Assembly: GCA_944324865.1 (NCBI GenBank)
Contig: CALUXW010000001.1
Location: 124,001 to 188,000, forward strand
Length of the DNA stretch: 64,000 bases
Origin: Candidatus Gastranaerophilales bacterium
GTDB taxonomy: Bacteria; Cyanobacteriota; Vampirovibrionia; Gastranaerophilales; Gastranaerophilaceae
Reading direction: 5' to 3'
Part shown: positions 4,125 to 35,299 of the stretch, in pieces
Numbering within the stretch: the stretch's first letter is position 1
Layout of the letters: every line of letters begins with the position of its first letter
Notes under the pieces: generated by a model
The model's input: the letters and a program-made list of their open reading frames with translations, nothing else
Told to the model about the DNA's origin: nothing
Database searches by the model: none
Made by a program: the position numbers and the translations under genes

Positions 4125-5960
4125 ATGGGAACTAACTTAAATCTAGGCGATGCTTTAAAGAAACGCTTATTCGAATCTAATGTAAATCTAAGCGATGTTT
4201 TAAAGAAAATCGCATCTGATGCCGGCTTTATTTCTTCAGCTGGCGGCAAATTCGCTGAAGGCGAATCACTTGAGGTTTTATTTGTGTCGGGTGGTACAAA
4301 TAATGCTGACACCATTGTATTAAAAGATACTAGCGGTGATAACTATAGTATTTCTGCGCAAAGCTTGCAAGGATTTTTGTCTGATGATGAGTATAATGCG
4401 CTTATTAACGGAGGAGCAAATAAAACTGAAGATGCATCTGCTACTAAAGGTGCTACAGAAATTGTCCTTGATGGTGCAGTTGAAGAAGTTGAAAAAACTG
4501 AAGCTACAAGCGAAACAAAAGATACATCGGCAATCCAAGATGAAATTGATGCGCTTGAAACCCAACGTGAAGCAAATCAAAAATCAATGGAAACCTTAAA
4601 AGACCAAATTGAAGACTTAAAAGAACAAATCGAACAATCAATCCAAGATGCTCTTGCTGCAATGGAAGAAATTGAAGAAGAACAGAAGAAAAAAGCAGAA
4701 GAAGTTGTAGCTGAAGAGTTGAAAAAATTCCAAGAATCCAATGGCGCTATGTCGCAAGATGAATTCAGCTCTAATGTTAAAAGTGCATTGGCTGCGATCA
4801 ATCCTTCTATGGGAGAAGCATTAACTTATATTATGTCTGCAGATAATAATATGGCATTAATGAGCAATTTATTAAATCAGCTAAGTCAAAAAATTGATAT
4901 CGACAAACAACTAGGTGATCAAATTGATGGCAAGGAACAAGAGCTCGAAGCTGCAAAAGCTGCTGCAGAAGCTGCTAAAAGTGCTGCATCATCTTCATCT
5001 TCATCTTGCAGACCTTGCGACCCCATTGGTGCAAATTTCGGCGAAAATCTCGGGTTTGACCTTGACGGTGATGGTGATGCAGGTCAAATACAGATTGATT
5101 TCTTCTATGACGAAGACGGCGACGGTAAAATTAACTCTATGAACGATTTTGTTGGTGCTAAGTCTGATGCATCCGGTGCTGATGGTTGGGATGAAATGTC
5201 AGCTATGGATGTTGATGGTGATGGAACTATTTCAGACGATGAGCTTGCAAACAACAATGTCAAAGTAATGATTACTGAGGTAGATGACGACGGTACAAAA
5301 TCTCAAAGGGCATTGTCTATCGAAGAATTTACGGAACAAGTCGGAAAAGGCGACTTAGAAATTTCTACACAAAAACATGACGAAATTAATAATAATGTAG
5401 TTGGACCATTTGGATTTAGTGATAATGATAGTAACCAAATGTTAGGCACATTTGATATCGGTTTTAGTGAAGATGACAGCGTAGATACAATCGGATATCA
5501 AACACTTGATGATCAAAATTGGCTCGTTGAAAATTATTCAGATAACATGGACATCGAAAGTCTAAAAGCTGAAGGTGTTGATGTATCTGCTGTTGAATCA
5601 GCAAATGCAGAAGAAGCAGGCGAATTAAGTCAATTTGAAGAATTTGTTAAACAATATCAAGATGAAGTAATGCCTCAATTGCAAACTGAAATTAATGATG
5701 CATATGCACAATTAGGCTTAACGCAAGAATCCATAAGTATTTTCAAAGATCTTGCCGAAGCAACTGCTGAACTTGAAGGTACAAAAATTGCAAATAAACT
5801 TGAAGAACAAGAAAAACAAGCAACTCAAAAAGCCGAAGAACAAGAAGAACAAGCTGATGAAGCCGAAGAAGCTGCTGAAGAACAACAAACTCAACAAGTT
5901 GATGCACATGAAGAAGCAGAGCAAGAAATCCTTGAAGAAAAAAAACTTGAGGATGAATAA
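4125..5960 (+). CDS. Acidic coiled-coil protein with EF-hand-like calcium loops, unknown function
   Basis: I do not recognise this 611-residue protein. It begins with two similar short helices (LNLGDALKKRLFESN and VNLSDVLKKIASD). A strongly charged coiled coil follows (about 138-205), then an Ala/Ser-rich linker to CRPCDP (295-300). Next come three Asp-rich loops at about 312-323, 329-341 and 362-373. The third, DVDGDGTISDDE, is a textbook EF-hand loop. The last 100 residues are a Glu/Gln/Ala-rich coiled coil. There is no signal peptide or membrane segment. It stands alone, with AAAGGA before the ATG and a strong terminator after it. Calcium binding is inferred from the loops; a structural or surface role is a guess from composition. 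Confidence 0.8.
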   Translation: MGTNLNLGDALKKRLFESNVNLSDVLKKIASDAGFISSAGGKFAEGESLEVLFVSGGTNNADTIVLKDTSGDNYSISAQSLQGFLSDDEYNALINGGANKTEDASATKGATEIVLDGAVEEVEKTEATSETKDTSAIQDEIDALETQREANQKSMETLKDQIEDLKEQIEQSIQDALAAMEEIEEEQKKKAEEVVAEELKKFQESNGAMSQDEFSSNVKSALAAINPSMGEALTYIMSADNNMALMSNLLNQLSQKIDIDKQLGDQIDGKEQELEAAKAAAEAAKSAASSSSSSCRPCDPIGANFGENLGFDLDGDGDAGQIQIDFFYDEDGDGKINSMNDFVGAKSDASGADGWDEMSAMDVDGDGTISDDELANNNVKVMITEVDDDGTKSQRALSIEEFTEQVGKGDLEISTQKHDEINNNVVGPFGFSDNDSNQMLGTFDIGFSEDDSVDTIGYQTLDDQNWLVENYSDNMDIESLKAEGVDVSAVESANAEEAGELSQFEEFVKQYQDEVMPQLQTEINDAYAQLGLTQESISIFKDLAEATAELEGTKIANKLEEQEKQATQKAEEQEEQADEAEEAAEEQQTQQVDAHEEAEQEILEEKKLEDE

Positions 5961-5977
5961 TCAAATAACTAAATATT

Positions 5978-6002
5978 AAACGCCCCAAAAGGGGCGTTTT
6001 TT
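5978..6002. terminator. Rho-independent terminator, usable from both strands
   Basis: Perfect 9-bp stem AAACGCCCC/GGGGCGTTT with an AAAA loop, followed by a run of T. It ends the EF-hand/coiled-coil gene and reaches the last codons of the convergent exporter gene. Confidence 0.92.
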
Positions 6003-7599
6003 ATATAACACCACGATGTTTAAAGATTCTGTAATATGCTCGTATTGTTGTAATAATTTTTCTTTTCTTTGGCATCTTAAAAAGTAATATAAAAGGTATT
6101 GCTAGTATACACATTAGCGAGAGTAATAAAAATACGTCATAGAATGCACATAGCTTAGATTGCAAAAGCATTTGTTTATACAAATATCCGCTAGCCTTTT
6201 TTGCTGCTAAATATGGGGCAAAATATGTTAAAAATTTTGATTTTAAAATAATTATTTTATATTGAAAATTCAAATTTGTTGGCGAAAGATATGCTACAAG
6301 GTAATTTTGATGAATTTGTGACACTCTTGTGACAAAAGTGGATACAGCTGAAGTAGAAACAGCAGTAACAATATTTTTAAATAGCGCATGTAGTCCTGCG
6401 GCATCAGCAAGTTTGGTTTTGGAAAGGGTAATAAACGATAATGCGCTGACAGGGACAAAAGTTACTGCTATCCCTATTCCTAAAATGATATTTGGTAAAA
6501 TTATGCTTTCAATTGAAGCTGTGGTATTTAAGCGTGAAAACATAAATACAGATATTGACATAATTATAAGTCCAATTACTGTTAAGAGTCTATTTTCGAC
6601 TTTATCGGCAATTCTGCCCATAATTAATAACCCTAAAAAACATGAAACAGCTCTGGGAAACACTGAAACACCTGCAAAATATGGTGAATAACCAAGCATA
6701 TTTTGACCAAACATAGGGATTAATAACAAAGTTCCATATAGCATAATGTTTATAAATGAGCTTATAAAGGTGCCAATTAAAAAATTTCGATCCTTAAATA
6801 CCCTAACATCGACAATTGGCTTTTTTGTTTCTAATTCCCATACATAGAAAAATACAAATGATACAACTGAAATTAAAGTTAACCAGTAAATCCAATAAGT
6901 ATCAAACCAATTAAATTGTTCACCTTTGTCTAGAACAATTTGCATACAACCCATAGCAAGAATAATGGACAATAAACCGACATAATCCATTTTTCTTTTT
7001 GGTGCATTGAGAGTTTTTTCAGAATTTATGAAAAATTTTATTAATAATAGACTAATTAAACAGATTGGTATATTCATTATAAAGACCCACTTCCATGAAT
7101 AGTTATCTGTCAGATAGCCTCCGACAAAAGGACCAAAAAGTGGTGAAAACATTGCTGCAAACCCAAAAAAACCCATTGCAACACCTTTTTTCTCAGGTGG
7201 AAATGTGTCAAGCAAAACTGCCTGTGCCAGTGGCAAGAGTGCCCCACCGGCAGCACCTTGTACTATACGACATAATATTAACATGTGTAAATCTTTGCAT
7301 AAAAGGCATAAAATACAACCTAAACAAAACAGACTTACACTCCAATATGCAACGCTTTTTTTACCGCTTGTATTTAACCACCAACCGAATATGGGTAACA
7401 TTATACCGCCTGAAATAATATATGCCGTAATTATACTGTTTGCCTCGTATGGTGTTGCGCCAAAATAGCCTGCAATATGTGGTTGACATACATTTGTGGC
7501 AGATGAAGCAACCATGGACATAAATGCAGGTAAAAGTATTGTAATTGCGACAATATAAGGATTTACTTTTTTTGGTTTTGTTGTTAATTGCTTGTTCAT
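6001..7599 (-). CDS. DHA2-family (EmrB-like) multidrug efflux MFS transporter
   Basis: A 532-residue inner-membrane proton antiporter of the 14-helix DHA2 family. Family features include the N-terminal TNVCQPHIAGYFGATPYEA region, the LCRIVQGAAGGALLPLAQA segment (motif C-like) and the FFGFAAMFSPLFGPFVGG helix after it. It is close to the broken emrB at 30655-32279, with matching blocks throughout, including the MLLQSKLCAFYDVF/LTMQSRLFAYFDTF tail region. It has no adaptor gene beside it. A 14-bp-arm palindrome covers its ribosome binding site and is nearly identical to the marR/tolC operator at 33862-33885. It may therefore be controlled by that MarR protein and work with EmrA and the NodT-like channel encoded there. 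The substrate is unknown. Confidence 0.92.
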   Translation of the reverse strand: MNKQLTTKPKKVNPYIVAITILLPAFMSMVASSATNVCQPHIAGYFGATPYEANSIITAYIISGGIMLPIFGWWLNTSGKKSVAYWSVSLFCLGCILCLLCKDLHMLILCRIVQGAAGGALLPLAQAVLLDTFPPEKKGVAMGFFGFAAMFSPLFGPFVGGYLTDNYSWKWVFIMNIPICLISLLLIKFFINSEKTLNAPKRKMDYVGLLSIILAMGCMQIVLDKGEQFNWFDTYWIYWLTLISVVSFVFFYVWELETKKPIVDVRVFKDRNFLIGTFISSFINIMLYGTLLLIPMFGQNMLGYSPYFAGVSVFPRAVSCFLGLLIMGRIADKVENRLLTVIGLIIMSISVFMFSRLNTTASIESIILPNIILGIGIAVTFVPVSALSFITLSKTKLADAAGLHALFKNIVTAVSTSAVSTFVTRVSQIHQNYLVAYLSPTNLNFQYKIIILKSKFLTYFAPYLAAKKASGYLYKQMLLQSKLCAFYDVFLLLSLMCILAIPFILLFKMPKKRKIITTIRAYYRIFKHRGVI

Positions 7600-7604
7600 T
7601 AATC

Positions 7605-7636
7605 TATCCTTGTGTTATGATGATAACACAAGGATA
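7605..7636. promoter_or_regulatory. Palindromic operator (MarR-type) before the DHA2 exporter
   Basis: Perfect 14-bp inverted repeat (7605-7618 and 7623-7636) around GATG. The inner half-site CTTGTGTTAT and its complement occupy 7609-7632. The same 24 bases, with one central change, occur at 33862-33885 upstream of marR and tolC. The site lies between the dtxR-like stop and the exporter start and covers the exporter's AAGGAT ribosome binding site. Confidence 0.75.
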
Positions 7637-7637
7637 A

Positions 7638-8054
7638 TTATTTGCAAAATTTACTTTTAAAATCATTGTTACAGGTCTTTTTATAGTAATTAGTAAACTT
7701 AATTAGTCTTTTAAGCATGTCTTGTGAGATTATATGTTCAATTGCACATGCGTTTTTTTGTGCTTCGCTGTGTGATGCGCCTAAAATATCTTTAAAAAAA
7801 ATGTACAGTGACTGGTGCTTAGCGATTATTTCTTTTGCAGCTTCTTCACCTTGAACTGTTATTGATATAGAATTATATCTGCCATAATTAATAAGATTTC
7901 TATTTGCAAGTTTTTTAAGTGCTTCAGTTGTAGATGCACGAGTAACTCCGAGTGCTTTTGATACATCAATAGCTTTTACAGAATTATTTTTTTCCAAGAT
8001 TAAATAAATGGTTTCTAAATAATCTTCCAAACTGGATGTTAATTTATCACTCAT
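7638..8054 (-). CDS. DtxR/MntR-family metal-dependent transcriptional repressor
   Basis: A 138-residue cytosolic repressor. The N-terminal winged helix (about 8-65) shows the family pattern SLEDYLETIYLILE, then VSKALGVTRASTTEALKKL as the recognition helix. The following dimerisation/metal-binding region contains H-Q-S-L-Y-I-F-F and CAIEHIIS, which matches the ligand-bearing helices of MntR/IdeR. It lacks the C-terminal SH3 domain, as in MntR. It lies 30 bases downstream of the membrane protein 8085-9107 on the same strand. The DtxR-like palindrome ahead of that gene suggests autoregulation by iron or manganese. Which metal it senses cannot be told from sequence. Confidence 0.88.
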   Translation of the reverse strand: MSDKLTSSLEDYLETIYLILEKNNSVKAIDVSKALGVTRASTTEALKKLANRNLINYGRYNSISITVQGEEAAKEIIAKHQSLYIFFKDILGASHSEAQKNACAIEHIISQDMLKRLIKFTNYYKKTCNNDFKSKFCK

Positions 8055-9114: not shown

Positions 9115-9150
9115 TGTTAGCCTCGCCTAACATGTTAGGATAGACTAACA
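9115..9150. promoter_or_regulatory. DtxR/IdeR-like palindromic operator
   Basis: A 36-base near-palindrome with three mismatched pairs. Its centre CCTAACATGTTAGG is perfectly self-complementary, and the outer arms are TGTTAG and CTAACA. TTAGG/CCTAA half-sites are those of DtxR, IdeR and MntR operators. The length would fit two repressor dimers. It overlaps the presumed promoter and GAGG ribosome binding region of the 8085-9107 gene. Confidence 0.7.
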
Positions 9151-9222
9151 ATAAATTATTCTATATAATTTGTCAAGTATTATTTTCTTGAGTTTATAGT
9201 ATTAATTTGATATAAAGATTTT

Positions 9223-29759: not shown

Positions 29760-30665
29760 ATGAAAAAGATAATTTGCTTAATATTTTTTAGTTTATTGGT
29801 TATACAAAACTGTATGTATTCTCAGACTTTGCAAGGAAATTTAACTGTTAATGATTTAGTTGTATTTAGTGAAAATGAAAAGTTTGGATTAAAAGACAAA
29901 GCAGGTAATATTATTGTTGAACCTATTTATAAAAAGCTGATAAGAGTTGGAAATTCTTCATGGATTGTTCAAAAAGGTTCAAAGTTTGGTCTTATCGACA
30001 CCAATGGGAACTATCTTGTTGAACCTAAGTACAGGCATGTAGATCGAATTTTGGGTAAATATGCAAAATTAGGAAATACACGTGATTTTGGGCTGTACAA
30101 TGAAAGGGGTGAAATAATAATTCTTCCTGAATATTCACGAATAGACCCACTTTTTGGTGAAATGTTCTTAACTTATAAAAATTATAAGTACGGAATTATT
30201 GATAGCAGTGGAAAAGTTGTTCTTGAAAACGAATATGACGATATTTATATGCCTAATCCAAACCTTTTAAAGATAAAGTATCAGGGTGATTGGTATGAAG
30301 TTGAACGTGCACAAAAAGGTGAAATCGAATTGCCTGATAATACCCAAAAAATCAGTGTTGAAGGTAATGAGCTGAAAATCACAAAAGTAATAACTGATAC
30401 AGGGCTAATATCTGGTTATGGTGCACTAACTGCTGCAGATTACCTGTTAAAATTATTTACATCAATTTCACCAGCATATGAACAAACAATTGATGAATTA
30501 ATGTATTCACAAGGTGCGGAAACAGTTAATATCTTGTTTCAATTAAGTTGGCTACCCAAATTTCCTGTAACTTACCTTCAAAAGTATTTTGATAACTTAC
30601 GTCATCCATATAATGGACCCTTATCTGATATACGTGAAGATGTTATGAAACACATTAGTGAGTAG
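29760..30665 (+). CDS. Secreted WG-repeat protein
   Basis: A 301-residue exported protein. It has a signal peptide (about 1-21) with a Cys in the hydrophobic region (VIQNCMYSQT), so lipoprotein processing is possible but the lipobox is poor. Residues 35-170 hold at least four WG-type repeats of the form KFGLKDKAGNIIVEPIY, KFGLIDTNGNYLVEPKY and KYGIIDSSGKVVLENEY, expected to make a beta-propeller-like fold. The C-terminal 120 residues are not recognised. It is divergent from the AsmA-like gene, with a 59-base gap. Its stop overlaps the end of the broken emrB. Confidence 0.85.
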   Translation: MKKIICLIFFSLLVIQNCMYSQTLQGNLTVNDLVVFSENEKFGLKDKAGNIIVEPIYKKLIRVGNSSWIVQKGSKFGLIDTNGNYLVEPKYRHVDRILGKYAKLGNTRDFGLYNERGEIIILPEYSRIDPLFGEMFLTYKNYKYGIIDSSGKVVLENEYDDIYMPNPNLLKIKYQGDWYEVERAQKGEIELPDNTQKISVEGNELKITKVITDTGLISGYGALTAADYLLKLFTSISPAYEQTIDELMYSQGAETVNILFQLSWLPKFPVTYLQKYFDNLRHPYNGPLSDIREDVMKHISE

Positions 30666-32279
30666 CACTTCTGATTCTGTTCATCTTTTTGTAATGGCGC
30701 AATGATCTTAAAAACCACAAATATTGTTTTTTAAGATAACTTCTTCCTTTTTTGTTAATTCGGAATAGCAAGCACATTGGTATAATTGCAAATGAAATAA
30801 ATGCCAACATTGAGAATGTATCAAAATATGCAAATAGCCTTGATTGCATAGTTAAATCCTGATAGATTCGCATGTAAGCACATTTAGTTGCTAAATATTG
30901 TGGCAAATGTAGTAGAAAAATATTCTTAAGAACAAGTAATTTATTATTAAAAGTCAATGAATATGGTGTTAAATTATGAATAAGCATATATTGATGCATT
31001 TGAGAGTGCCGTTCAACACAAGTTGCTGTTAGTGAGGTAGCAAATGCACCTGCGACCGATCTGATAAGTGCGCCCAAACCAGCACCATCATGTATTTTAT
31101 TACCGGGTAATGTAGCAAATGAAATTGAACTTACTGAAATAAAAGTAAATGCAATTCCGCTGCCTAATGCAAGATTTGGAATCATAATATTTTCGATCGA
31201 GGATGACAGATTTATATTTGTGAACAAAAAGGTGCCGTAACCTATTATTATAAGGCCTATTACAGTTAATATTCTATTGTCAACATTGTCTGCAATTTTT
31301 CCGATAATTAATAGCATTACAGCAACACTTAAGGGGCGTGGAAGTATTGACAACCCGCTTGCAGTTGGTGAATCCCTAACAATGTTTGCAAAAAAGCTGG
31401 CAACAGCATTAATGTAGAGTATAGTACAACTTGAATAAAAGCACCTAAAATAGAACCAATAGTAAAGTTTATATCCTTAAATACTGATATATCAGCAATT
31501 TGATTCTTGCGCTCCCACTCCCAACAAATAAAAAATACAAAACAAAACAGACTAATTGCAGACAAAACACAAATCCAAGTTGTATCAAACCAATTATACT
31601 GTTGACCCTTGTCTAACACATATTGCATACACCCTAAGCCAATTATAATTGAAAGCAAACCAAGAGAATCAACGGTTGTAATTCGCTTCTGTATAATTTC
31701 AGGCGGAACACAAATAAACAGATAAACCAAGATAAGTGATATTATACCAATAGGTATATTAATTAAAAAAATCCATTGCCAACATGAATTATCTGTTATC
31801 CATCCGCCAAAAGTAGGTCCTAATAAAGGTGGTAAGATTATTTATAATCCGAATATTCCCATAGCCTTACCTCTTTGTTCAGGAGGGAATGTAGAAAGCA
31901 GTACAGCCTGACACATGGGAAGTAGCGCACCACCCCCTATTCCTTGTATTGCACGTGCAAAGAGCAAAAAATGTAGGTTAGTTGCTAAAACGCAAAGTAA
32001 TGCACCCAAAATAAACATTGTAATTGCAAGGTATAATGTATTTTTTTGTCCAAGCGTTTTTGTGAACCAACCTGACAAAGGTAAGACCATAGCATTAGCG
32101 ATTAGATAGGTAGTGATAACAGTATTTGTTTCATATTGAGTTGCACCAAGAAATCCAGCAATATGTTTCATTGCAACATTAGTAGCAGAAGTGCCCAATA
32201 CAGCAAAGAATGTTGGTAAAATAACACTAAAAGCGATTAAGTAAGGGTTAACATTTTTATTGATTTTTTTCTTTTTCAT
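30655..32279 (-). pseudogene. emrB: Broken emrB-like DHA2 MFS transporter (stop codon plus frameshift)
   Basis: Homologous along its full length to the intact exporter at 6001-7599, but the reading frame is cut twice. (1) An in-frame TAA at 31842-31844 directly after MGIFGL, where the intact copy continues FAAMF; the same frame then goes on without gap. (2) A one-base loss near 31351-31358: the frame ending in LLGIHQLQAG switches to LSILPRPLSVAVML. The pieces are 145, about 170 and about 233 codons. It starts 2 bases after emrA. Two lesions argue for a true pseudogene, though sequencing or assembly errors cannot be excluded. Confidence 0.85.
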
Positions 32280-32281
32280 TC

Positions 32282-33355
32282 TTATCTAATTTTAATTTTT
32301 GGTACAACAGACATACCAGGAGCAATATTGTAATGCGAAACATCTTCACAAAATATTATTTTCACAGGAATCCTTTGTACTATTTTTACATAGCTTCCGA
32401 CAGCATTCTCAGGAGGAAACAAGCTAGATTTAGCTCCTGTTGCTCTTTGTAAGCTGTCAACTTTACCTTTAAATCTTACTTTAGGGTATGTATCGAGTTT
32501 TATTATCACATCCTGACCTTCTCTAACTTGTTCTAGCTGTGTTTCCTTATAATTGGCAACAATCCAAACTTCATCAGAAACTATTGACATAAGCGGTTGA
32601 GCAATCTGGACATAATTACCTTCTTCGACAGTTCTTGCTGAAATTTTTCCATCCTGAGGGGCATATATTTTTGTATAAGACAAATTTAGCTTAGCTTCAT
32701 CAATTTCACTTTCAAGTCGCTTTATGGATGCTGCAATTTCATGTTGTTTAGCAACCGCTTGCTGTGTTGCAATTTCTGCAGCTTTTTTCTTTTCTTGTTC
32801 TGCAAGATAATTCGCACTTAATGACAAATAAGCTGTTTTAGATGCATCTAGTTCTTCTTGAGAAACTATACCATTGCTGCTAAGCTTTAAATCTCTTTCA
32901 TAAGTTCTTTTTGCATAATCTAAACGAGATTTAACACTTGAAATGTCTTTTCCGGTTTTTACTACAATACTTGCACTTTCTTGAATATTTTTATTAGATG
33001 CATTCAGTTGAGCTTTTGCCTCCATAAGTTTTGCCTCTTTTTGTTCAAGAGCAACAATGTAGTCATTGGGATCAATTTCTAATAATAAATCGCCTTTTTT
33101 AACCTCTTGATTATCTTTTATGTATAATTTTACCACCGGGCCTGCTACACGAGGAGCAATGGAGATAATATGACCCTCAACAAAGGCATCGTCAGTAGAT
33201 TGATAATAGTGTGCATGTAATAAAGCATAAATACCTGCAAGAGCAAGTATCAAAAAAGTTATAACAGGCACAATTATTCTTTTTTTTACTTTATAATGAG
33301 GTTTATTTTTTTTCTGCGTATCTTCTTTTAAATTATTGTTGTTATCTTCAGCCAT
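32282..33355 (-). CDS. emrA: HlyD/EmrA-family efflux adaptor
   Basis: Periplasmic adaptor linking an EmrB-type pump to an outer-membrane channel. About 357 residues: a cytoplasmic Lys-rich start, one membrane helix (VPVITFLILALAGIYALLHA), then the biotinyl-lipoyl half-motif QSTDDAFVEGHIISIAPRVAG, typical of EmrA. A long alpha-helical hairpin and the second lipoyl half (IYAPQDGKISARTVEEGNYV) follow. I chose the ATG at 33355 because TGGAGA lies just upstream; the longer frame from 33385 overlaps marR. It is in an operon with marR (upstream) and the broken emrB (downstream). Confidence 0.92.
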   Translation of the reverse strand: MAEDNNNNLKEDTQKKNKPHYKVKKRIIVPVITFLILALAGIYALLHAHYYQSTDDAFVEGHIISIAPRVAGPVVKLYIKDNQEVKKGDLLLEIDPNDYIVALEQKEAKLMEAKAQLNASNKNIQESASIVVKTGKDISSVKSRLDYAKRTYERDLKLSSNGIVSQEELDASKTAYLSLSANYLAEQEKKKAAEIATQQAVAKQHEIAASIKRLESEIDEAKLNLSYTKIYAPQDGKISARTVEEGNYVQIAQPLMSIVSDEVWIVANYKETQLEQVREGQDVIIKLDTYPKVRFKGKVDSLQRATGAKSSLFPPENAVGSYVKIVQRIPVKIIFCEDVSHYNIAPGMSVVPKIKIR

Positions 33356-33368
33356 TTTTATCTCCAAT

Positions 33369-33839
33369 CTACAAAGACATATCAACCTTGTCTAAGAGGT
33401 TATTTAAAACTTTATTTAAAACATTTAAACATACATTCATTTCTTCTTGATTAATACCTTGCGTCATAACACTCCTGTATTGCTCGGTAACACTTGAAAG
33501 TTTTGCAAAAATATCTTTTGCCTTTTGTGTTAAAAATATCTTGAATACTTTTCTTTTATTTGTATCACTTATACGCTCTACATAACCATTTTTTTCAAGT
33601 ATATTTATTATTCTTGTTATATTAGGCCTATCTTTTAGTGTTATTTCACTGAGTTGACGCTGATAAAGACCGTCATGATGCATCAAAACTTCTATTACAA
33701 CAAACTGCTCCGGGGTAATATCAAAGTTATGATTTTTAAAACATTGACGTGAATAAATTCTGGTGTAAACACCTGCTGCAACGAGCATTGCACCTGGCAA
33801 CTTTCTATAATTTTGAACATCGGGTTTAATTGTTTTCAT
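33369..33839 (-). CDS. MarR-family transcriptional regulator of the efflux locus
   Basis: A 156-residue winged-helix repressor. It shows the MarR pattern: ITPEQFVVIEVLMHHDGLYQ, then QLSEITLKDRPNITRIINIL as recognition helix and NGYVERISDTNKRKVFKIFL as wing. It is the first gene of the emrA-emrB transcript and divergent from the NodT-like tolC. The 14-bp-arm palindrome in between is the natural operator. A near-identical palindrome before the exporter at 6001-7599 extends the proposed regulon. The inducer, likely a small aromatic or bile-type compound by family habit, is unknown. Confidence 0.9.
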   Translation of the reverse strand: MKTIKPDVQNYRKLPGAMLVAAGVYTRIYSRQCFKNHNFDITPEQFVVIEVLMHHDGLYQRQLSEITLKDRPNITRIINILEKNGYVERISDTNKRKVFKIFLTQKAKDIFAKLSSVTEQYRSVMTQGINQEEMNVCLNVLNKVLNNLLDKVDMSL

Positions 33840-33857: not shown

Positions 33858-33889
33858 TTTTCTTGTGTTATGATTATAACACAAGAAAA
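33858..33889. promoter_or_regulatory. Palindromic operator between marR and tolC
   Basis: Perfect 14-bp inverted repeat (33858-33871 and 33876-33889) around GATT. The core half-site CTTGTGTTAT and its complement occupy 33862-33885. It differs by one central base from the site at 7609-7632. It lies 19 bases upstream of the marR start and 28 bases upstream of the tolC start, so it can control both directions. Confidence 0.82.
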
Positions 33890-33916: not shown

Positions 33917-35299
33917 ATGAAGAAGTTAACAATATTAATTCTACTAATCATGCTTGTATTTACAAATGCTGCTATTGCCAAGAAAGAGAAGCAAACAGAC
34001 AATGATAAACAAGTTGGTTATTTAAATATTCAATGGTGGGATGAATTTAATGATCAAAATTTGCATGATTATATGTTAATTTTATTCAAAAACAATCACG
34101 ACTTTAAAATCGCACAGTTAAGAATTAAAGAAGGTGAGCAAATAGTAAAACAAAGCCTTGCCAATGAATTACCACAAATAGGGCTCAGTGGTAACGTAGA
34201 GCGAATTTTAAGAGCAAGTGATCAATATTTTGGTCCAAACATGCTTATTCCTAATTTTTCGCAAACAAATTTACTCTTTCCAATTAGCGCAAGTTATGAA
34301 ATAGACATATGGGGAGCAAACAGGACAAGAACAAAAAGTATTCAAAAACAACTGGAGATGGTTCAACAGGAGGAAAGAGCAAAATATATTTCAATTTCAG
34401 GAGACTTTGCTGCTGCATACTATAATTTAGTTAAATGCGATAAAATACTTAAAATACAAAATGAACTTGTCGATTTACAAAAAAACATAGTAAATTTAAC
34501 ACAAATCAAATATAATGCAGGAAAATGCAGCATCGACGACTTAATAGAACAAAAGAAAATTCTAAAAAACTTTGAAGAACAATATAACACAATTAATAAA
34601 GACAGAAAACTTGTTGAAGAAGAAATAAAATATGCTCTCAGCGACAGTAGTATTGAAGAAATACCTGACAGCTCACAATCGTATATTCCTAAAATATCAT
34701 TTCCAGATCAAATTTCATCCGAAATAATAGAAAACAGACCTGATGTGATTGTTGCACTAAAAAAACTTGAACATATGGGACTGGATGTAAAAGTAGCAAA
34801 AAAGGAGCTCTTGCCCAGATTCATATTATTCGGACAGTTTGGCTTTAATGCATATCGACTCAGCAACTTATTTAACAATAATGCCATACTTTCATCCTTT
34901 GGAGTAGCTCCAATTTTAGATATATTTACAGGTGGACGAAAGGTAGCATACTTAAGATATAAAAAGTATAAATATGATGAAGCACTTGAAAACTATAAAC
35001 AAACAGCGCTAAATGCATACAAAGAAGTCAATGACACACTTGTATGTGCAAAAATCTACTCGAAAAACTTACAAAGTGCCAAAGAAAGACTAGAGTTGGA
35101 AAAAAAGAACTACAATATAGCGTTTACACGATACGAGAATGGAAAAGGAACGTTACCACACTTATACGAAGCAAAAGAACGTGAACTATTAGTTGAAAAA
35201 AATATTGTTGAATCAGACATAAACACTTTGATAGCAATAATAAGCCTTTATAAAAGTACCGGTGGGAAAAACCTTAAAGAAATCAGCGAAAATATATAA
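33917..35299 (+). CDS. TolC/NodT-family outer-membrane efflux channel
   Basis: A 461-residue outer-membrane channel with a signal peptide (about 1-22, MKKLTILILL...AAIA). NodT-type features include WWDEFNDQNLHDYML, SYEIDIWGANRTRTKSI and ENRPDVIVALKKLE. The ATG at 33917 is chosen because the longer frame from a TTG at 33863 lies inside the operator and would hide the signal peptide. There is no lipobox Cys at the mature N-terminus. With emrA it supplies the adaptor and channel of an Emr-type tripartite exporter. Confidence 0.9.
   Translation: MKKLTILILLIMLVFTNAAIAKKEKQTDNDKQVGYLNIQWWDEFNDQNLHDYMLILFKNNHDFKIAQLRIKEGEQIVKQSLANELPQIGLSGNVERILRASDQYFGPNMLIPNFSQTNLLFPISASYEIDIWGANRTRTKSIQKQLEMVQQEERAKYISISGDFAAAYYNLVKCDKILKIQNELVDLQKNIVNLTQIKYNAGKCSIDDLIEQKKILKNFEEQYNTINKDRKLVEEEIKYALSDSSIEEIPDSSQSYIPKISFPDQISSEIIENRPDVIVALKKLEHMGLDVKVAKKELLPRFILFGQFGFNAYRLSNLFNNNAILSSFGVAPILDIFTGGRKVAYLRYKKYKYDEALENYKQTALNAYKEVNDTLVCAKIYSKNLQSAKERLELEKKNYNIAFTRYENGKGTLPHLYEAKERELLVEKNIVESDINTLIAIISLYKSTGGKNLKEISENI

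Follow-up and report, generated by a model that had tools for sequence, protein, structure and literature searches.

Copies of a predicted MarR operator mark the dispersed genes of one EmrAB-TolC-type efflux pump in Gastranaerophilales

Two copies of a 24-bp palindrome lie in the window, by which we mean the whole stretch of 64,000 nucleotides analysed here, and both are very probably operators of a single MarR repressor. This protein would repress marR-emrA, tolC and a remote emrB, so that the pump parts are made together, and the ancestral gene block would have been split with its operator kept. The window is on contig 1 of a draft genome (1.79 Mb, 63 contigs, 94.8% complete) from the Gastranaerophilales, an order of non-photosynthetic relatives of Cyanobacteria. 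A sequence-only reading of the window had proposed that one MarR governs a pump spread over two loci. This proposal is supported by the exclusivity of the site, its conservation in congeners, the joint decay of the two loci, and the displaced tolC genes that carry the site, and from these we infer that MarR binds it. The sequence-only reading overlooked two points: the emrB next to emrA is a pseudogene, and the site is a predicted operator of the whole lineage.

Copy 1 of the palindrome (CTTGTGTTATGATGATAACACAAG, 7609-7632) is immediately 5' of emrB1, and copy 2 (CTTGTGTTATGATTATAACACAAG, 33862-33885) is between marR (33369-33839, − strand) and the divergent tolC (33917-35299, + strand). The sole difference between them is the last centre base, exactly as first reported, and the two placements given then also hold: marR and tolC flank the 33862 copy, while the span 7605-7636, away from marR and downstream of an MntR-like gene, directly precedes the EmrB-like exporter. 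Copy 1 is 5 bp past the stop of the MntR-like gene and 9 bp 5' of the emrB1 ATG, and the Shine-Dalgarno sequence of emrB1 (AAGG) starts within its last bases. Copy 2 is 22 bp 5' of marR and 31 bp 5' of tolC. The whole-genome search with the 24-base pattern, which had been suggested as a check, was performed with CTTGTGTTAT-NATN-ATAACACAAG; it found these two copies, each at a pump gene, and no others in the 1.79-Mb genome at up to two mismatches. With three mismatches allowed, the chance expectation for the window is 0.02, and no shuffle contained two copies. Furthermore, the two sites are the only perfect palindromes with 10-bp arms and a 4-nt loop in the 64 kb. One extra genome match appears at up to three mismatches (G000:C1:84441, three mismatches). 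We rejected it as a third operator and regard it as a chance match, because it lacks the central AT and is flanked by unrelated genes.

emrB1 (6001-7599, − strand) is intact and encodes a DHA2 (EmrB-type) exporter of 532 aa, which scores 363.7 bits with TIGR00711 (cut-off 230.2) and has EmrB (8zal/8zar) as its best PDB match. Synonymous distances are near or past saturation, and dN/dS is given for emrB1 only; the value is about 0.03, which supports no more than a statement of strong purifying selection, as dS (>1.3) is near saturation. The marR product, the predicted repressor, has the winged-helix MarR domain (PF12802, 44.3 bits, cut-off 27; PF01047, 41.7 bits, cut-off 24.6), and its nearest PDB structures are MarR-family entries. 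The second gene of the marR operon, emrA (32282-33385, − strand, likely start about 33355), encodes a periplasmic adaptor with Pfam HlyD domains. Its best model, TIGR00998, gives 252.2 bits, under the cut-off of 390.8, and it is therefore classed only as an EmrA-like HlyD-family adaptor. The tolC gene encodes a TolC-like outer-membrane channel with the OEP domain (PF02321, 122.5 bits, cut-off 22); it narrowly misses the NodT subfamily model TIGR01845 (202.8 bits against 210).

What is the function of the remote exporter? At the original operon position, 3' of emrA, lies emrB2 (30655-32279, − strand), which is broken into three pieces by an in-frame TAA and a frameshift. These lesions make it an exporter pseudogene, unless both are assembly errors. 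We searched 15 genomes of the genus, the window genome and 14 congeners. The emrB2 relics in this set are at different stages, being near full length in G000 and G005, partial in G014, about 100 bp long in G011, and little or nothing in the others. In the emrB tree, the emrB2 relic branches deeper than emrB1, which groups among the operon emrBs of sister genera. Because the emrA-adjacent copy is a pseudogene, emrB1 is probably the actual working exporter of the pump rather than an extra target of the repressor. Alternatively, emrB1 might be co-regulated and yet be an independent single-component exporter, not a partner of EmrA and TolC, as it is general knowledge that many DHA2 transporters work singly. 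We consider this unlikely, since emrB1 nests within the operon emrBs, both pump loci decay jointly in two species, and none of the genus genomes compared, most of which are MAGs in which an absence may reflect incompleteness, has an intact exporter beside emrA. The reading of emrB1 as the working subunit of this pump is therefore preferred.

The pattern of conservation within the genus bears on the same question. The emrB1-side palindrome is kept at up to two mismatches in 15 of 15 genomes, those with a dead emrB1 included. emrB1 itself is intact in 13 of the 15, and the 12 others have 80-93% identity to the window emrB1. The marR/tolC-side site is present in 11 of the 15 genomes, which are all those with the locus intact and assembled. 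An orthologous marR match was not found in G012 (75% complete) or in G013, where the first locus is broken at contig ends, with tolC at the end of C31 and emrA at the end of C9. G005 has broken copies of tolC, marR, emrA and emrB2, and its remote emrB1 is broken too. A deletion has left a scar at the first locus of G009, where the ends of tolC and emrA abut, and emrB1 of this genome is reduced to three short pieces, with the palindrome retained. The decays in G005 and G009 come out as two distinct events in all 200 bootstrap replicates of a tree of the neighbouring genes, with modest support nearby. Both genomes retain a paralogous tolC2-marR2-emrA2 set, and this speaks for emrB1 being a component of the first pump rather than the second. 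A tripartite pump of the EmrAB-TolC type is predicted here from probable co-regulation, from ancestry in common with contiguous operons, and from co-decay.

A scan of one genome per species (84,980 species) with YTTGTGTTATNATNATAACACAAR gave at least 110 exact matches. Many copies unrelated to efflux had been named as the outcome that would speak against a MarR regulon. Instead, both copies in the genome are at pump genes, and at least 108 of the at least 110 matches listed, nearly all in Gastranaerophilales, are directly before marR, tolC or emrB. Among the matches listed, at least 84 are between marR and tolC and at least 11 directly 5' of marR (at least 95 at marR in all), at least 5 are directly 5' of tolC only, and at least 8 are directly 5' of emrB1. 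One match listed ends at a contig edge, and its upstream genes are the same as in a marR-linked copy. The only exact palindrome outside the lineage among the matches listed is in Clostridium acidisoli (L183:3021-3044), where it precedes an unrelated N-acetylmuramoyl-L-alanine-amidase-like gene and is probably due to chance. At up to one mismatch, the site occurs in 74 of 146 genomes of the family, while the reversed control pattern has 0 matches. Most carriers in the family have a single copy, and several family genomes have MarR-type matches and no palindrome. The usual arrangement outside the genus of the window is ancestral-looking, with tolC on one side of the site and marR-emrA-emrB diverging from it on the other.

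The gene next to copy 1 invites a different assignment. An MntR/DtxR-like regulator gene (7638-8054, − strand, Pfam Fe_dep_repress domains) is upstream of emrB1; its stop comes 5 bp short of the palindrome, and its direction of reading is into emrB1. The emrB1-side site could then be the operator of this regulator, its likeness to the marR-tolC site being secondary. However, the MntR-like operon bears boxes of its own, GTTAGn6CTAAC, in tandem at 9118-9151 before the 8085-9107 gene, and these are the likely MntR-like operator. They occur in all genus genomes (two in 14 of 15, one in G009), and in most of them a TTGACA-like −35 precedes the boxes. Moreover, at most loci across the order the palindrome is beside marR, and MntR is absent. 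We rejected the MntR-like protein as the palindrome binder because it has its own boxes, and this assignment is highly unlikely; MarR is the preferred binder. The 8085-9107 gene encodes a 340-aa membrane protein that is linked to the MntR-like gene across the order and has no Pfam or NCBIfam match.

Where a second copy of the palindrome exists, it marks a displaced pump gene, which is emrB in the genus of the window and tolC in three other genera. In nine of nine genomes of the latter kind in which a second copy was found, the displaced tolC has its own copy. In seven of these (G131, G152, G133, G172, G084, G113 and G158), one copy is 5' of marR and the other 5' of tolC elsewhere in the genome. 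For G043 and G107, in which a single copy had been counted, a further copy with 2 mismatches lies directly 5' of the displaced tolC. In G175 (88% complete), tolC is separate and no second copy was found. On the emrA tree, the separated-tolC state requires at least three changes, one of which may be common to genera g27 and g30. We lean toward the view that the palindrome is a portable promoter-operator unit in Gastranaerophilales. Subunit genes leaving the operon would carry or regain the 24-bp MarR site, so that co-expression of the regulon would survive repeated, independent break-ups, of the exporter once and of the channel at least twice. In genus g64 (L294, L295, L298), the displaced tolC has as its neighbour the MntR-like/340-aa pair found 5' of emrB1 in the genus of the window; either this neighbourhood has received a pump piece twice, or the pair is an ancestral neighbour.

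The palindrome also contains promoter-like elements. Copy 1 has an extended −10-like match with TG, TGTTATCAT (7620-7628, − strand), toward emrB1. Copy 2 has TGTTATGAT (33866-33874, + strand) toward tolC and TGTTATAAT (33873-33881, − strand) toward marR. The extended −10 TGTTATnAT is present on both strands in nearly every copy, a few 1-mismatch variants having it on one strand only. Wherever a species has an open emrB1, its emrB1-side site has the element in the sense direction. In 65 marR/tolC sites, a set selected for the pattern including the centre, the arms and the central AT are invariant and the centre base on either side of the AT varies freely; in 31 sites picked irrespective of the centre, the central AT is always present. 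Among the genus sites compared, the −35 region 5' of emrB1 shows no conservation. From that −10, emrB1 transcripts would begin in the right arm, some 15-20 nt 5' of the start codon and shortly before AAGG. Since TGTTATnAT is on both strands, the simplest reading is repression by promoter cover, in which the MarR dimer probably blocks RNA polymerase.

Such a palindrome might instead act as RNA, as a hairpin, terminator or Shine-Dalgarno mask, and not as a DNA operator. The emrB-side palindrome does fold well as RNA (z −4.9) and would hide the Shine-Dalgarno sequence, and the + strand has a terminator-like match. However, no T-run follows the palindrome in the emrB, tolC or marR direction, flank covariation is not above composition (p = 0.19 and 0.31), and the arm letters are fixed across the order. 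In addition, a common transcript is not expected at one site between divergent genes. We rejected an RNA hairpin or extended palindrome, as the flanks have no excess covariation and no T-run is downstream in the gene direction. A role as RNA is thus most improbable, and the palindrome is better read as a DNA operator.

Could another MarR-family paralogue, rather than the adjacent MarR, bind the palindrome? The genomes have 1-4 MarR-type matches each, and G145 (L288, G145:C37:1-8000) has the order emrB-emrA-operator-tolC with no marR beside the unit and MarR-like genes elsewhere in the genome. However, marR adjoins the site at nearly all loci, and the best-conserved paralogue, MarR2, has a separate operator, TGTTGCAWWTGCAACA, which is unlike the pump palindrome and occurs in perfect form once in the genome. 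The recognition helix KDRPN.tRii.ILE is retained in 88 palindrome-linked MarRs; the helix of MarR2 is KDRANTGRIL, against KDRPNITRII in MarR. We give this possibility very little weight and retain the adjacent MarR as the repressor. The tolC2-marR2-emrA2 set (L250:243-3234, G000:C1) is kept in the genus with its own operator and is likewise without an adjacent exporter. A second split regulon around it was considered and rejected: the MFS gene of 31% identity (C29) is in another operon that lacks TGTTGCAWWTGCAACA.

We propose the following mechanism. One dimer of the marR product would bind each copy of the palindrome, covering the extended −10 on both strands and shutting out RNA polymerase. 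The targets repressed in this way would be marR-emrA, the tolC divergent from them, and the remote emrB at a distance of 26 kb. Release of MarR from the DNA is probably brought about by a pump substrate, by analogy with EmrR of E. coli (PMC6780985, PMC6249546), and all three EmrAB-TolC-type parts would then be made together. The ancestral layout would be a single block, with tolC and marR-emrA-emrB diverging from one operator. In the genus of the window, the block would have lost its emrB by decay, the role passing to a remote emrB that has an operator copy to itself. tolC would have moved off, likewise with its own operator copy, in two or more other lineages.

The closest known systems share parts of this arrangement. 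In E. coli emrRAB, the MarR-family EmrR adjoins the adaptor and DHA2 exporter genes under its control, and the pump uses TolC (PMC6780985). The likeness is in the MarR-family repressor beside the adaptor gene and in the EmrAB-TolC-type parts. The E. coli operon includes the exporter gene, with tolC at another locus, whereas in the present case the operator is shared by tolC, and the remote exporter has its own copy. E. coli tolC is not known to belong to the EmrR regulon. EmrR of Chromobacterium violaceum, as seen by EMSA, directly controls emrCAB (adaptor, exporter and a dedicated TolC-like channel), itself and other loci (PMC6249546). MarR-family control over an adaptor, an exporter and a TolC-like channel is common to both, predicted from sequence in our case; the three pump genes of C. 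violaceum are in one operon, while here they are split, with an operator copy at each piece. FarR of Neisseria is a MarR-family repressor of farAB, an MFS adaptor-exporter operon (PMC6780985); it has three sites in a single promoter region, whereas here there is one palindrome per separated unit. Comparative-genomics regulons of the RegPrecise type have regulator targets over several operons with one motif, their organisation varying by species (PMC5343134). By contrast, the present regulon apparently covers one pump only, from which different subunits have been repeatedly and independently separated with the operator kept. The parts are known (EmrR/EmrAB-TolC type), and the dispersed, operator-tracking layout is new. 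Its novelty lies in the placing of the divergent tolC under the operator of marR, in the replacement of a dead local exporter by a remote one, and in the retention of the operator as subunits were repeatedly displaced. Our literature search, which covered open-access papers, found no description of this regulon or of efflux control in the lineage.

These results sharply delimit a predicted regulon in an uncultured lineage of gut bacteria and offer a natural series of operon break-up, from one block, through a moved channel or a moved exporter, to the decay of both loci. The regulon predicts which distant exporter works with the adaptor; gene order by itself would not reveal it, as the emrA-adjacent copy is dead. 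The 24-base pattern is usable as a marker for pump parts in fragmented genomes of the order. Elsewhere in the window, 4125-5960, which has no family match, encodes an acidic 611-aa protein with EF-hand-like DxDGDG stretches.
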